From positions 186,001-250,000 of the forward strand of contig CANLUT010000002.1 of NCBI GenBank assembly GCA_947494335.1: 64,000 nucleotides of DNA, read 5' to 3'. Positions within the stretch are counted from its first letter, which is position 1. Each line of letters opens with the position of its first letter. The DNA is from Oligoflexales bacterium (lineage in GTDB: Bacteria > Bdellovibrionota_B > Oligoflexia > Oligoflexales > RGVZ01). The notes under the pieces were generated by a model. It had not been told where the DNA came from, did no database searches, and saw only the letters and a program-made list of their open reading frames with translations. The translations under genes and the position numbers were made by a program. This document shows, piece after piece, positions 1 through 17,778 of this stretch.

Positions 1-772
<772 letters not shown>

Positions 773-6614: not shown

Positions 6615-7715
6615 TTATTCCATGTCACGATCAGCAAAAACAGTCTGCGGTGGGATCTTCGCCCCCCCTGCAACCTGTGATCTCACTAGCACTGCATGAG
6701 CACCGACGTGTACGTCAGCACCTAATTCTGAGTCTTCCACTACCACCTGCGGGCCAATGACGCAATTGCGAGAAATTTTGCTCTTTCCGCGCAGATACGC
6801 ACCCGGATAGATGGTTACGTCAGGCTCTACAACAACATCTGCTTCAATAAATACAGTCTCTGGCAAATGAATCGTCACGCCGTGGCTCATGAGACCATCA
6901 AGGCGGCGACGCATCATCGCCTGTTCAACGGATGCAAGTTGAGAGCGATCATTGACACCTTGAAACTCCTCGGCAGAGGTCGTCTCAAAAACAAAAGCCG
7001 ACTCACCGCTGCGAGCCGCCGCAGCAAAAATATCGGTCAGATAATACTCATTTTGTGAATTGGTTGGGGATAGGCCCTCCAAGAGGGAAAAGAGGGTGTT
7101 TGTTTTGGCAAAAATTACTCCGCTATTACAGAGGTTTATCTTTTTTGTTGCCGCATCGGCATCACGCTCTTCCACAATCTGACTCAGTCCGCCATCAGTA
7201 CCCTTCACGAGGCGTCCGTAGCCTTTGGGGTCCGGCACAATCATGCCCAGGACCCCAAGTTTTCGACTGGAGCCAAGGACCGATTGAATAAAATTTCGAA
7301 TAGTATTCGGGTTAATAGCAGGGGTATCTCCCGCACAAACCAAAACCCAATCAGCATCCGAGGGCTTACCAGCAATCAGCTCACTTTGAGCCCAGGACGG
7401 GCATTTTGCCTTTGTGTAGGCTTTTGCAGCACTGGCAACCGCATCACCGGTTCCGCGCTGAGCCTTTTGAATTGTAAGTTTAGTCTCTGGATGGAGCCCC
7501 ACCACTTTTTCAAAAGGCTTATGACCTGCAGACAAGACCAAGGAGGTATCTGTTGCCCCGGCCTTCTTTGCCGCATCGATCACCCACTCAACCATGGATC
7601 GACCCATGACAGGGTGAAGAACTTTTGGTAATGTGCTCTTCATGCGCGTGCCCTTGCCGGCGGCAAGGATGATCGCTGAGATTGTGTGGCTTGTGTTTTT
7701 TGTTGTTTCAGTCAT
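6615..7715 (-). CDS. glmU: GlmU-like UDP-GlcNAc pyrophosphorylase with a shortened left-handed beta-helix
   Basis: 366 residues from the ATG at 7715 (MTETTKNTSH); an in-frame ATG at 7754 would add 13 residues. The N-terminal nucleotidyltransferase is complete: LAAGKGTRMKS (about 18-26), QRGTGDAV (86-93) and CAGDTP (128-132). It makes UDP-GlcNAc from GlcNAc-1-phosphate and UTP. Full GlmU is about 450 residues and also acetylates glucosamine-1-phosphate with a C-terminal beta-helix. Here only about 80 residues of hexapeptide repeats remain (about 285-366), ending at FADRDME, so the coils that carry the acetyltransferase site are absent. Another enzyme would have to supply the acetylation. It is the first gene of the glmU-glmS run. 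Confidence 0.88.
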   Translation of the reverse strand: MTETTKNTSHTISAIILAAGKGTRMKSTLPKVLHPVMGRSMVEWVIDAAKKAGATDTSLVLSAGHKPFEKVVGLHPETKLTIQKAQRGTGDAVASAAKAYTKAKCPSWAQSELIAGKPSDADWVLVCAGDTPAINPNTIRNFIQSVLGSSRKLGVLGMIVPDPKGYGRLVKGTDGGLSQIVEERDADAATKKINLCNSGVIFAKTNTLFSLLEGLSPTNSQNEYYLTDIFAAAARSGESAFVFETTSAEEFQGVNDRSQLASVEQAMMRRRLDGLMSHGVTIHLPETVFIEADVVVEPDVTIYPGAYLRGKSKISRNCVIGPQVVVEDSELGADVHVGAHAVLVRSQVAGGAKIPPQTVFADRDME

Positions 7716-7839
7716 TCGCGTTCCGATACTTTGCCTGGCTGATTTCACGTGCAAAATGGACAGTTTAGTCCTTTTTAGAACGCTTGGTCACAGATTTTTT
7801 TGTCCAAACTTGCTTGCGAGATTGTAACGGGGATTTTTG

Positions 7840-8610
7840 ATGGGACTATTTGATTTTATTAAAAATTTTGGCGGAAGCCCGGAATCCAAAATCCAAAAGG
7901 CTTCCGAGACGTCTAGAAACCCAAAAGCAATCCGCGAGGATCGCTGGGCCGCGATCGAGTTTCTTGCAGATGCCGTTTCCGATCCAGCCAAGGCCGTAGA
8001 ACCACTCCTCATGCGCTTTGAGTTTAGCCTTGAGCACGGGATCAACGATACCCGCGAAAAAGAAAAGGCCATGGAAGGCATCGTTCGCCACGGCGAAGCC
8101 GCCTTACCCATGGTCCTATCGCATCTTAAAAAGACCACGCGGATTGCTTGGCCTATCAAGATCATCAAAGCTCTAGGCCGAAGCGAGGATCACGTCATCG
8201 ACTGCCTGGTTAGTACCTTGGAATATTCCGATGTCTCCTTTGATCAAGCGCAAACCGACAAAAATTACGACATCCTCTGTCATCTTGCCGATTACAAAAA
8301 GCACGGCTTAAAAGACAAGATCAACCACTTCCTCAAAGATCCCGATGAGCGCGTACGCTATGCCGCAGCAGAGGTTTTAATGGAGCAAGACCTGACAGAA
8401 GTAGGGGACACTCTGGAAAACCTTATGCGCGACGTGAATCCGGACAATTCGCGAATCCGCCAAACTGTTGTACGCAAATATTTGGAAAATGGTTGGCCCG
8501 TTCAAAACGCGAATGCATTCCCTAATCGCAATGTGATTGGACCTGTTTTTGTGAACGACCAAAATAAACTTTTTGTCAGCCAAGAGCACCTGAGTCAGTA
8601 CAGTGAATAA
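7840..8610 (+). CDS. HEAT-repeat protein
   Basis: 256 residues, soluble, with no signal peptide. The ATG at 7840 is preceded by GGGGA at 7829-7833; a TTG three bases upstream is an alternative. Helical pairs such as EKAMEGIVRHGEAALPMVL, WPIKIIKALGRSEDHVIDCL and DERVRYAAAEVLMEQ are typical of HEAT/PBS-lyase-like repeats, which serve as protein-interaction scaffolds. The last 40 residues (FPNRNVIGPVFVNDQNKLFV) fall outside the repeat pattern. It is divergent from glmU and overlaps the next gene by eight bases, so the two are probably translated together. The partner and role are unknown. Confidence 0.8.
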   Translation: MGLFDFIKNFGGSPESKIQKASETSRNPKAIREDRWAAIEFLADAVSDPAKAVEPLLMRFEFSLEHGINDTREKEKAMEGIVRHGEAALPMVLSHLKKTTRIAWPIKIIKALGRSEDHVIDCLVSTLEYSDVSFDQAQTDKNYDILCHLADYKKHGLKDKINHFLKDPDERVRYAAAEVLMEQDLTEVGDTLENLMRDVNPDNSRIRQTVVRKYLENGWPVQNANAFPNRNVIGPVFVNDQNKLFVSQEHLSQYSE

Positions 8611-9010
8611 TTTCACCGAGATCGACCCTAAAAAACTATGCCAAGTCGAAATCCATGCTGCACGGCTTGACGTAAGTCGTAAGTTCTACGAGGAGGTTTT
8701 TGGGTGGAAGACGGTTCCTGCTGAGATTCACAACTATCTCGTCTTGGATGTTCCAAAAGACTGTCCCTTTGGAATCAGCATTGTCCCGTCGCTAGGCGCT
8801 AAGACTTCCAGTGGCCAAATTATTCTTTACTTTGAAGTAGAAGATGCTGCTCACATCGCAGAGCGTGCGGAGAAATTTGGCGGATCAAAAAAATTTGGGC
8901 CTACAAAACTCCCGGCTTACGGAAATATCTGGCAAATCACAGACCCAGATGGTCACCGCTTTGGACTCTTTGAAAAGCAAACGTCCCGCTCGTCAAAAGC
9001 AAGCCACTAG
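8603..9010 (+). CDS. VOC (glyoxalase/bleomycin resistance) family protein
   Basis: 135 residues made of one vicinal-oxygen-chelate unit: an N-terminal HAARLDVSRKFYEEVFGWKT, a central IILYFEVEDAAHIAERAEKFGG and a C-terminal ITDPDGHRFGLFEK. Family members bind a metal and act as lyases, dioxygenases or drug-binding proteins; the substrate here cannot be inferred. The start is GTG at 8603, overlapping the end of the HEAT gene, which implies translational coupling. It converges on alr with 19 bases between the stop codons. Confidence 0.85.
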   Translation: MNNFTEIDPKKLCQVEIHAARLDVSRKFYEEVFGWKTVPAEIHNYLVLDVPKDCPFGISIVPSLGAKTSSGQIILYFEVEDAAHIAERAEKFGGSKKFGPTKLPAYGNIWQITDPDGHRFGLFEKQTSRSSKASH

Positions 9011-9029: not shown

Positions 9030-10148
9030 TCAAATCAGACGCCGCTCAATAGCAGGATTTAACCTGGTCACGAGCTCATAATGGATAGTCTCAGACCAAG
9101 CTGCGACCTCTGAAGCGGAAATGGTTTCCATACCATCTGGACCAATCAGCGTCGCAATGTCGCCAACCTTTGCCGTCAAGGCTATATCGGTAATGTCGAC
9201 CATCATCATGTTCATGCAGATACGACCAACGATAGGGCAGCGTTCGCCACCAATAAGGACGTAAGCCTGACTACCAGAGGCCATGCGTGGATATCCTTCA
9301 AAATATCCTATCGGTAAAACTCCGATAACCATATCGTGGCGTGCTTTATAGGTACATCCGTATCCAACATACTGTCCTTGCGACACGTGATTGATGCTTG
9401 TAATTTTTGTACGCCAGCTCAATACAGGCCTAAGTTCAACCAGGTCACCGTAAAGTTGTTTGTAGGAAAGCCTCGTTGCCTGGCTTGGCCAAAATCCATA
9501 CAAGGCAATTCCCACTCGCGCCAAATCAAAGCGACTTTCATCCAATATCAACACAGATGCCGAAGACGCTGAATGTGCTATGAAACTAAAACCACGACTC
9601 ATAAACTTGGATTTTGCGTCATCAAATTTTTTCAGCTGCAGTCGCGCGTACTCATGCTCTGTCACATCCTCGACGTTTGCAAAGTGCATGCAGACTCCCT
9701 TGACCAAATCCTTTTGGGGCAAAAGACTTTGAGCGACTTTCTCTGCGTCATTCGGTCTAAAACCCTGGCGACTCATGCCGGTGTCAAATTCAATATGCAC
9801 GGCTGGCTTTTCTTGAGCCTGCTGCCAAGCCAAAAGCCCCTCTGGGTGTCCAAGAAATAGCTCTAACGTTTCATCGTGCGCAACTTTGAGTTCCGCCGGA
9901 ATAAATGGTCCCACGACAAGAATGCGACCCTTAAACCCAAGGCGCCTTAATGCAACACCCTCTTCAACGTAGTTTACAGATATCCAGGCCAAAGGCTCTT
10001 GACTTAAAGCCGAATAGACCTCTTTTAGCCCATGGCCATAAGCATTACTTTTTAAAACAGGAGCGAGCTTTGCTGCGCCCACAATTTTCGCAAAAACACG
10101 AAAATTATGCCGGAGGTTTTCGGCGTTGAGTTCTATCCAGGTCAGCAT
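9030..10148 (-). CDS. alr: Alanine racemase
   Basis: 372 residues, the normal length. It converts L- to D-alanine for peptidoglycan using PLP. The PLP lysine is K33 in PVLKSNAYGHG, and the second catalytic residue is the tyrosine of VGYGCTYKA; the motifs GRICMNMMMVDITD and GYFEGYPR are also typical. The ATG at 10148 begins MLTWIELNAENLRHN, the standard N-terminus, with a GAAG-type ribosome site upstream. It is transcribed away from the unknown secreted protein gene (same strand, 48-base gap), and the two may be one transcript. Confidence 0.96.
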   Translation of the reverse strand: MLTWIELNAENLRHNFRVFAKIVGAAKLAPVLKSNAYGHGLKEVYSALSQEPLAWISVNYVEEGVALRRLGFKGRILVVGPFIPAELKVAHDETLELFLGHPEGLLAWQQAQEKPAVHIEFDTGMSRQGFRPNDAEKVAQSLLPQKDLVKGVCMHFANVEDVTEHEYARLQLKKFDDAKSKFMSRGFSFIAHSASSASVLILDESRFDLARVGIALYGFWPSQATRLSYKQLYGDLVELRPVLSWRTKITSINHVSQGQYVGYGCTYKARHDMVIGVLPIGYFEGYPRMASGSQAYVLIGGERCPIVGRICMNMMMVDITDIALTAKVGDIATLIGPDGMETISASEVAAWSETIHYELVTRLNPAIERRLI

Positions 10149-10196: not shown

Positions 10197-11471
10197 TCAG
10201 TTGATGGAGGTTCCGAAAACTTTAAGCGAAAACACTTTGGGGATTGGCCCTTGAGCTGGCGCCACTAACGGTGCCGTAAGCGTTTGCGCCGTATTAATGC
10301 GGGAAACATGGCAAACCTTCTGGTTTCCTGCCGCAAGATACGCCATAGCTGCATTTCCAACCGAGTCTTGGCCAATAGCAATTCCAAGACGATCTCCACA
10401 CCCGGTCTCCGTTGCCGCCATAAGCCAATCACCACGCCCCATGCGGGCAACCTTCATCCCAGTGATGGATTGAAGACTCAAGGTTGAATCGACGCTAGAC
10501 GATAACGAGGACACCTCATCGGCGGTCATCGCTTTCAAAGTCTGGGTCGGCGAGATCAGCAAGTCAGCCACAGCAAAAGTTTCTTCTTTTGTCCCTTTAA
10601 AAGAACACGGCGCATTGGGAACAAATGCCGAGATCATCGCGACCTTGGTGCCATCATTGCCAGTAAAAAGCGCAGCCACGGGAACGTCTCTGCAGGTTCG
10701 GTTCCATGTGATACTGAGAGAACGGTCTTGGTTTACCGCCAACTTTTCAGACGCTACGATCCTTAGGGTAAACAGGTTTTCCAAGCGACCTTGTTTTGGG
10801 GTAACTTGCACCTTGTCGGCTGTGAGATTCACTCCAGCAATTTGTTTGCGAACGGTTGTGCGGGGACAGGTCTTTACACCTGTCTGTGCCAACCCGTCTT
10901 TAGGCAGATTAGCAATCATCAGACTCATCTTTGGTGAACCATCACTGGCACTGGAAGGACTGAGGACAACGCCAACATAGGGTCGGCAAGTGTCTTGCCA
11001 AGAAACCGCCATACCACTACTTGAGATGGTCACATCGGTGACCTCAGACAAGCTGATCCTTTCAGCCTCGCCAAGATTTAGGGTTTTGACAGGCCTATGA
11101 CCATTCGTCTTGAGGGTGATTGTTTTTTTAACAGGAAGGGTCAGACACATTGTGTCGCTGCGATCCAGCACCGCGCCGACATAAAGACCATGCTTGGTCT
11201 CGTCAATCAGAACACCGCGCAGCGACTCGCCGCATCCCTCATCATAAGTCATCGTCACAGACTGTGACTTATCCTTCTCACTCTGAATAACGGACACAGC
11301 GACGGGTTTCAGATAGTTAAGCTTAGGAGACTGTCCCGCCACGGGAGCGCCTACAGCCGTAGGGATCAGCACGGTGTTAGACACGAAATTTATCGAAGCT
11401 GCCGTTATGATGCGCGCTGTGCGTGTGGAAAGCCAAGATCTGTAACGGACTTTAGACGGTCGAGATTGCAT
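10197..11471 (-). CDS. Secreted protein with four two-cysteine repeats, unknown function
   Basis: 424 residues. A basic start and a hydrophobic stretch (about 20-42, ending VGA) look like a signal peptide. The rest holds exactly eight cysteines in four consecutive pairs: C80/C109, C162/C202, C260/C289 and C358/C387. Three of the pairs are 29 residues apart. Each unit starts with a beta-like segment before the first cysteine (VTMTYDEGC, AVSWQDTC, SITWNRTC, MAATETGC), then a small-hydrophobic VGVVL/AALF/GIAIG strand, and closes with the second cysteine. This points to a tandem disulfide-stabilised beta domain in the periplasm or outside the cell. I recognise no family. The ATG has an AAGGA site upstream. 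Confidence 0.75.
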   Translation of the reverse strand: MQSRPSKVRYRSWLSTRTARIITAASINFVSNTVLIPTAVGAPVAGQSPKLNYLKPVAVSVIQSEKDKSQSVTMTYDEGCGESLRGVLIDETKHGLYVGAVLDRSDTMCLTLPVKKTITLKTNGHRPVKTLNLGEAERISLSEVTDVTISSSGMAVSWQDTCRPYVGVVLSPSSASDGSPKMSLMIANLPKDGLAQTGVKTCPRTTVRKQIAGVNLTADKVQVTPKQGRLENLFTLRIVASEKLAVNQDRSLSITWNRTCRDVPVAALFTGNDGTKVAMISAFVPNAPCSFKGTKEETFAVADLLISPTQTLKAMTADEVSSLSSSVDSTLSLQSITGMKVARMGRGDWLMAATETGCGDRLGIAIGQDSVGNAAMAYLAAGNQKVCHVSRINTAQTLTAPLVAPAQGPIPKVFSLKVFGTSIN

Positions 11472-11785: not shown

Positions 11786-11935
11786 ATGAAACGTACATTC
11801 CAACCACACAACAAGCGTCGCGTTCGCACTCATGGTTTCCGCGCGCGCATGAAAACCGCCTCAGGCCGCGCCGTTCTTGCACTGCGCCGCGCAAAAGGCC
11901 GCAAGAAAATTGCCGTCACTGCTTACGAGAAGTGA
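11786..11935 (+). CDS. rpmH: 50S ribosomal protein L34
   Basis: 49 residues, starting [20 protein letters not shown] and ending in a basic tail ([16 protein letters not shown]). The sequence is near consensus for L34, a small basic protein of the large ribosomal subunit. A GGAG at 11772-11775 precedes the ATG. It heads the conserved rpmH-rnpA-yidD-yidC-jag-mnmE block, in which the components of ribosome, RNase P and membrane insertion are encoded together. Confidence 0.97.
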
Positions 11936-16716: not shown

Positions 16717-17778
16717 TTATTTATACTCATCAATTTCGCGATTGATACGTCTAATGTAATTTCCCATGAGATGATCATCAAGAAACTTAGGCCACTCAAT
16801 TCCACCCATGACTCGGATATGATCTGGCATGACCTGACCTTGGGGCAGGTTTTTTGTCTGCTCCAAAAACTCTTGATAGGCCTCTTCGTCGGCTGTCAGC
16901 TCTTTGGGAATATCAGCTTCGGCGACTTCCGGCTTGCCAGAGCCATGGCCACCTGTAGCCAGATAGCGGTCTGGCCTAAAATCGACGTTCCCATTGCGAA
17001 GCCAAACAAGGGATCCAAAGTGTTTCATCCAGAAGGGAACTTTAGCCACAAGATCTGTTTCATTGACGACCCTGTAGTAGACATTAATAAATGTATTCCT
17101 CATTTTTTTAGCGAGAACTGCATCTGCAAATAAAGGCTGTCCAAAGGTAACCACTTTATGCATGTCGGGGCCATCGCCAATCCAACGCTCAAATTTTGAT
17201 TTGTAAGCAAAAACTCCAGCCAAGGCTCCGCCGAGACTATGGCCCGTCACCCAAAAGTTTTTACGAGAAACCCCCTCCCGCTTAAGAGCACGGATAACCT
17301 GGGTGTAAAGATTTGTTGCCGCCGTATAAAAACCTTTATGGACGGCACCATCGCTTTTCAAATTCACAGTCGAGGCCTTAAAGTTGACCATCCAGTCCCG
17401 GAAACTTTTCATATCTGTGCCGCGAAACACCAAAACCGCACACTTGTCATTGGTCATCAGATATCCATACATGGAATCATAGACAAAGTGCTCAACATTT
17501 GGGTAACCCCACGATTTCGCCTTTTGTTCGACTCCAGCTGCGTTAAGATATGCGGCCTCACTTGCCTCAGCCAGAGAGCCAATAATTTTCCACGTTAATA
17601 AATCAAGCTGCTCAGCTCCCGATGAACCCATGACTGGCAAGGTGCTACTGCCGAACAGACATGCCTCCTCACGATTACCACTAAATTCTCGAAGCTGAGA
17701 CTGGTCGTTTCTTGATTTGCATTGATTCATTAGTAATAGAGAGAAAAGCGATATGACTGCGATCCGAATCGTCTTCAT
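16717..17778 (-). CDS. Lipase class 3 family lipoprotein
   Basis: 353 residues. The N-terminus MKTIRIAVISLFSLLLMNQC suggests export with a lipid-modified Cys20, although the lipobox is weak. Two hallmarks of class 3 (Rhizopus-type) lipases are present: VLVFRGTDM (about 115-123) and the nucleophile elbow GHSLGGALAG (S181). The downstream region includes VVTFGQPLFAD, the usual segment that precedes the catalytic Asp. It should be an esterase or lipase acting in the periplasm or on the cell surface; the substrate is unknown. It starts at ATG 17778 and is the gene downstream of the GYF_2-like gene on the same strand. Confidence 0.85.
   Translation of the reverse strand: MKTIRIAVISLFSLLLMNQCKSRNDQSQLREFSGNREEACLFGSSTLPVMGSSGAEQLDLLTWKIIGSLAEASEAAYLNAAGVEQKAKSWGYPNVEHFVYDSMYGYLMTNDKCAVLVFRGTDMKSFRDWMVNFKASTVNLKSDGAVHKGFYTAATNLYTQVIRALKREGVSRKNFWVTGHSLGGALAGVFAYKSKFERWIGDGPDMHKVVTFGQPLFADAVLAKKMRNTFINVYYRVVNETDLVAKVPFWMKHFGSLVWLRNGNVDFRPDRYLATGGHGSGKPEVAEADIPKELTADEEAYQEFLEQTKNLPQGQVMPDHIRVMGGIEWPKFLDDHLMGNYIRRINREIDEYK

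Follow-up and report, generated by a model that had tools for sequence, protein, structure and literature searches.

What kind of protein is encoded by the gene that lies between rpmH and an alanine racemase gene in an Oligoflexales genome, and do its regularly placed cysteines mark a repeated domain? The window, that is the whole stretch of 64,000 nucleotides that was analysed, carries this gene on the minus strand as an ORF without interruption, and the plus strand of the same segment contains many stops. The product has cysteines only at the eight positions given in Table 1 and, as the sequence-only reading had described, they form four consecutive pairs, with spacings of 29, 40, 29 and 29 residues. 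When eight cysteines were placed at random in 424 residues, at least three of the four consecutive pairs had the same spacing in 4.25e-4 of 200,000 placements, a figure calculated post hoc. The similar strand patterns noticed earlier before the first cysteine of each unit were found again across the family, as hydrophobic columns of the form h.h.h...C in modules 1, 2 and 3 and h.h.....C in module 4.

Table 1. Features of the four-module locus, in positions of the window.
Feature	Residues	Cysteines	Position	Strand	Basis
Four-module secreted protein gene	424 aa		10197..11471	-	ORF and orthologues in order
Putative signal peptide and N-terminal tail	1-48		11328..11471	-	Kyte-Doolittle scan, 29 members
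Module 1	about 49-134	Cys80/Cys109	11070..11327	-	profile comparisons, module model; boundaries approximate
Module 2	about 135-230	Cys162/Cys202	10782..11069	-	profile comparisons; boundaries approximate
Module 3	about 231-328	Cys260/Cys289	10488..10781	-	profile comparisons; boundaries approximate
Module 4, with C-terminal strand-like segment	about 329-424	Cys358/Cys387	10200..10487	-	profile comparisons; boundaries approximate
alr, alanine racemase			9030..10148	-	TIGR00492, 296.3 bits against a cut-off of 168
rpmH, ribosomal protein L34; divergent neighbour			11786..11935	+	TIGR01030

For comparison with one another, the modules were cut from 28 aligned members, from 32 residues before the first cysteine to 10 after the second, and members without the respective pair were omitted, leaving 28, 27, 28 and 22 rows for modules 1 to 4. 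All 12 ordered comparisons by HHalign were significant, with probabilities of 88.3-96.4% and scores of 30.0-44.6; column shuffling never gave more than 17.2 when the Cys columns were held in place (100 trials), nor more than 13.6 when the shuffling was complete (40 trials). After all cysteines had been masked, scores for the six module pairs were still 21.9-34.3, the lowest of them with a probability of 46%. Scores above the shuffled controls, with the cysteines masked as well as unmasked, rule out that chance similarity or unrelated segments were taken for modules. A half-against-half alignment, made with 21 members after seven with incomplete halves had been omitted, extended over 144 columns (98.3%, E 1.7e-14), and a joint alignment of 105 modules placed all 105 first cysteines in one column and all 105 second cysteines likewise. 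By each of these approaches the units are homologous to one another, as in a tandem-repeat protein, so that the duplication suspected from the sequence alone holds for all four, and we consider the four-module architecture very likely. In the window copy the repeats have drifted to 10-17% identity yet have kept their cysteines, which makes them a clean case for the evolution of an internally duplicated disulfide domain; the lineages described below that are without one Cys pair belong to the same case.

The history of the duplication was approached with two trees. The tree of all 105 modules (74 columns for 105 rows, with many forks without resolution) grouped them largely by position, with 7 label changes compared with a mean of 58.3 after shuffling. 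Since the modules cluster by position, the duplications are older than the divergence of the sampled members, and the four-module array was built by internal duplication before that split. The second tree was restricted to 60 modules from 15 of the 28 genomes, the other 13 having been dropped for long or incomplete modules. Here module 1 formed one group at 100/99, and the arrangement 13|24 needed 2 changes and each alternative 3, at weak deep support. The next Gly follows the first Cys at C+6 in module 1 (28/28) and module 3 (26/28), and at C+5 in module 2 (21/27) and module 4 (16/22). This spacing, together with the alignment of the two halves, favours a duplication by pairs of pairs (A-B-A'-B'), which is suggested by the sequences at hand.

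Attempts to assign the protein to a described family gave no name in the libraries searched, and the sequence-only reading was right in calling the family unknown to that extent. No family in Pfam, NCBIfam or PHROGs was matched by the window protein, a PDB sequence search gave nothing convincing, and the titles and abstract openings searched in the literature on Oligoflexales and Bdellovibrionota do not mention it. When 27 members were compared with Pfam, eight families were listed at E <= 1, each with one member (best E 0.0054), and no Ig-like family was among these eight. The matches to RFX, NFRKB, adenovirus fibre and others (E 0.005-0.2), each found in one of the 27 members, were regarded as noise, as were a PAU beta-lactamase match (E 0.019) and a match to an unnamed PHROG (E 0.03), each found in one of 10 members.

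Relatives were found within the order Oligoflexales. A search with the window protein alone against 56 related genomes gave matches in 11 of them at E <= 0.1; those in L010 (E 0.03) and L012 (E 0.09) were dismissed as chance, there being no cysteine-paired ORF of this kind. A profile from a 10-member alignment matched 28 of the 43 genomes of the order at E <= 0.01, and a 27-member profile found the same 28 among 58 genomes of the class, with one match in each and none in the 15 class genomes outside the order; the phylum sample consisted of the same 58 genomes. The gene is single-copy in its own genome, where no paralogues were found. In 19 genomes without a profile match (15 in the order, 4 outside) yidC was located, and its neighbourhood was examined in 16 of them. 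This brought to light an additional member at the same locus in G019 (hmm E 1.2e-17), raising the count to at least 29 of the 43 genomes; since it had been missed by the order-wide profile search, other members may have been missed too. Seven genomes (G010, G012, G026, G028, G031, G037 and G040) have alr beside rnpA with no four-module gene between, and thus absence at that locus is real; other neighbourhoods have another arrangement or are cut by contig ends. Where present, the gene occupies a constant chromosomal position in six family-level groups within the order. Plasmids gave no match, no relative was found among 34 pattern matches in viral contigs, and a strict pattern scan of GTDB contigs returned four close relatives, apparently the four genus members already found. 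The best reading is that the family is restricted to this lineage, where the basis is the 58 genomes within the phylum and the strict pattern scan beyond it. The carriers are a group of freshwater bacteria.

The full-length model, made from five input sequences, had a best pLDDT of 63.7 with a pTM of 0.46, and the other four models lay at 41-45. It is nearly all beta, with a like order of strands around the cysteines of modules 1-3 and a poorly modelled module 4. The model of module 1 was made from 20 module rows (five species with four modules each) and reached a pLDDT of 79.9 and a pTM of 0.69. Its predicted strands (4-9, 12-18, 21-30, 34-42, 48-57 and 66-74, then two short ones) suggest a plain succession of six, and Cys32 and Cys61, corresponding to Cys80 and Cys109, lie just after the third and the fifth, in turns. 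An up-and-down arrangement of the strands in this order would bring both turns to the same end, which makes a bond between them plausible. As to the compartment, a hydrophobic N-terminal stretch was seen across the members in the Kyte-Doolittle scan (n = 29), clearer in many orthologues than in the window protein, whose N-terminus is weakly hydrophobic with a maximum of 1.47; in a small number of members, G001, G007, G008 and G016 among them, the N-terminus is outscored by a stretch further along, mostly by a narrow margin, the difference in G008 being 0.48. Counted from the first module Cys on, eight mature cysteines are found in 22 of the 29 members, six in the other seven, and an odd number in none. 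These even counts and the N-terminal stretches indicate export, and an exported and oxidised protein would also fit the hydrophobic N-terminus and the three genes of the DsbA family that exceed the Pfam cut-off in the same genome. The protein is probably periplasmic.

The cysteines of modules 1 and 3 occur in 28 of 28 aligned members and those of module 2, whose spacing varies from 28 to 49 across the family, in 27, and the two columns of module 4 hold Cys in 22 and 23 members. The module 4 pair is missing in four genomes of one genus (G006-G009) and the module 2 pair in G013; G019, outside the 28-member alignment, has six cysteines and a gap where the module 2 pair is expected. Six cysteines are also found in G018, whose ORF is cut short by the end of its contig, and in G011 the module 4 cysteines (321/347) are present and misaligned. 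That whole module pairs are missing together supports disulfides within modules. Pairing between modules, for instance so as to close the array into a ring, would be accommodated by the full-length model, whose pTM leaves the inter-module geometry unfixed, and the C-terminal segment KVFSLKVFG looks by eye like the strand opening each module, as might be expected in closed repeat rings. Such pairing is nevertheless very improbable, given that the lineages in question are without both cysteines of a single module, and that the two cysteines of a pair lie in turns that might meet within the module. A random pair among eight cysteines falls within one module with probability 1/7, so that two or three independent whole-pair losses are suggestive, not conclusive. 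The in-unit disulfide proposed earlier is thus probably right, with each module presumably stapled by its own bond from the turn after the third strand to the turn after the fifth. The fold itself is less readily judged. Neither model had a Foldseek match at E <= 0.001 among solved and viral structures, and the VIA structure comparison gave no row at Z 5 or more for either; the weak rows (Z 2.0-2.4) include many beta-sandwich or Ig-like chains, such as CD160, TENCON and MHC domains, and NigD-like proteins. The latter (PDB 3qwn and 3k0y) made up the only two VIA rows listed in a second look at the full-length model, with Z of 2.3 and 2.2 over 73-74 residues (rmsd 3.3 over 74 residues at Z 2.3). 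They share all-beta units with the four-module protein, but the Z values are far under a trustworthy level and the PDB sequence search showed no similarity, and NigD-like proteins are not known to form arrays of four repeats with paired cysteines. Tandem Ig-like proteins, too, are built of successive all-beta domains, each about 95 residues long and holding one disulfide of its own. In classical Ig domains, however, this bond links two core strands, whereas the one predicted here joins two turns. The modules could be Ig-like or have another common beta-sandwich fold that is already known, divergence having gone past the point of detection, so that only the sequence family would be new; their all-beta prediction at about 95 residues and the weak beta-sandwich rows speak for this, and the missing Foldseek match and the simple succession of six strands that is predicted, against it. 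We give this view slightly less than even odds. The earlier suggestion of a new repeat fold did not stand as an established result, as a missing match is not proof of novelty when the full-length model is weak and the module model moderate. A further reading, which seems unlikely, takes the module for a small beta fold not seen before, held by one turn-to-turn disulfide and arrayed four-fold in Oligoflexales alone, where it would form a lineage-specific envelope component made with alanine racemase.

Alanine racemase enters through the locus. The alr gene, which serves the cell wall, lies 48 nt downstream on the same strand, and beyond the other end of the four-module gene the order is rpmH-rnpA-yidD-yidC-jag-mnmE; curated cut-offs were passed by alr, rpmH, rnpA, yidD, mnmE and two YidC domain models, and the Jag match falls under its cut-off. 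Of the 29 loci, 25 have alr downstream in the same orientation, 23 of them within 73 nt (with two overlaps with the four-module gene, the longest ORF start having been taken) and G004 and G035 at about 700 nt; no adjacent alr is present in G001, G011, G018 and G019. A divergent rpmH is found upstream in 27 of 29 loci, and the other two (G023, G038) end just upstream of the gene. From this arrangement across the loci we infer that the four-module gene is probably co-transcribed with alr. Alternatively, the link could be positional only, with the gene keeping its place in a conserved order near rpmH-rnpA-yidC and having a role of its own, e.g. at the cell surface. The conservation of the whole neighbourhood fits this, as do the members without an adjacent alr and the seven genomes in which alr stands beside rnpA without the gene and so is independent of it; the gaps of 7-73 nt in most loci, in contrast, favour a single transcript. 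This alternative deserves serious weight, if somewhat less than half, and adjacency at a conserved locus need not imply a shared function. Taken as a whole, the best explanation, with a probability of roughly 0.7, is a periplasmic four-module, disulfide-stapled beta protein co-expressed with alr: the exported, probably periplasmic protein would consist of four beta-rich modules, homologous to one another and each about 95 residues long, and its gene would be transcribed with the downstream alr. As such it may be an envelope protein specific to this lineage and linked to alanine racemase.

What this protein might do can be suggested only tentatively from its conserved sites. Conserved charged columns are few (138, 188, 258, 262 and 369 in the numbering of the window protein, weighted 0.53-0.74) and none is invariant, a weak argument against an enzyme. 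Among segments that are not repeat-wide, conservation is highest in the turn after the first Cys of module 3, with a family consensus of R-x-C-N-E-A-P-[IVL]-G (Glu262 0.74, Pro264 0.84, Gly266 0.95), from which the window copy departs with RTCRDVPVA. A rigid multi-domain envelope protein of this kind might bind or space a component of the cell envelope, with the conserved C-N-E-A-P-[IVL]-G turn as its likeliest contact site; such a non-catalytic binding or scaffold role is the one that we favour, though with low confidence.

Several other genes were noted in passing. In the congener G001 the four-module gene is followed by a 713-aa lipoprotein-like ORF, not alr (L045:7281-9422, plus strand). 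Near alr in the window, 8603-9010 (plus strand) encodes a small protein that we label glyoxalase-like, with a KbpA match below its cut-off, and such a protein also adjoins alr in L081. A GlmU-like protein of 379 aa (6615-7754, minus strand) matches positions 2-326 of the 452 of the GlmU model, below the curated cut-off, and the GlmU-like ORFs in L077 and L081 have 267 and 263 aa; the acetyltransferase C-terminus of GlmU seems to be short or missing in this order. Finally, a 353-aa protein at 16717-17778 (minus strand), with no NCBIfam match at 1e-5, begins with LLMNQC and contains GHSLGG, which we take to be a lipoprotein-like start and a lipase-like motif.
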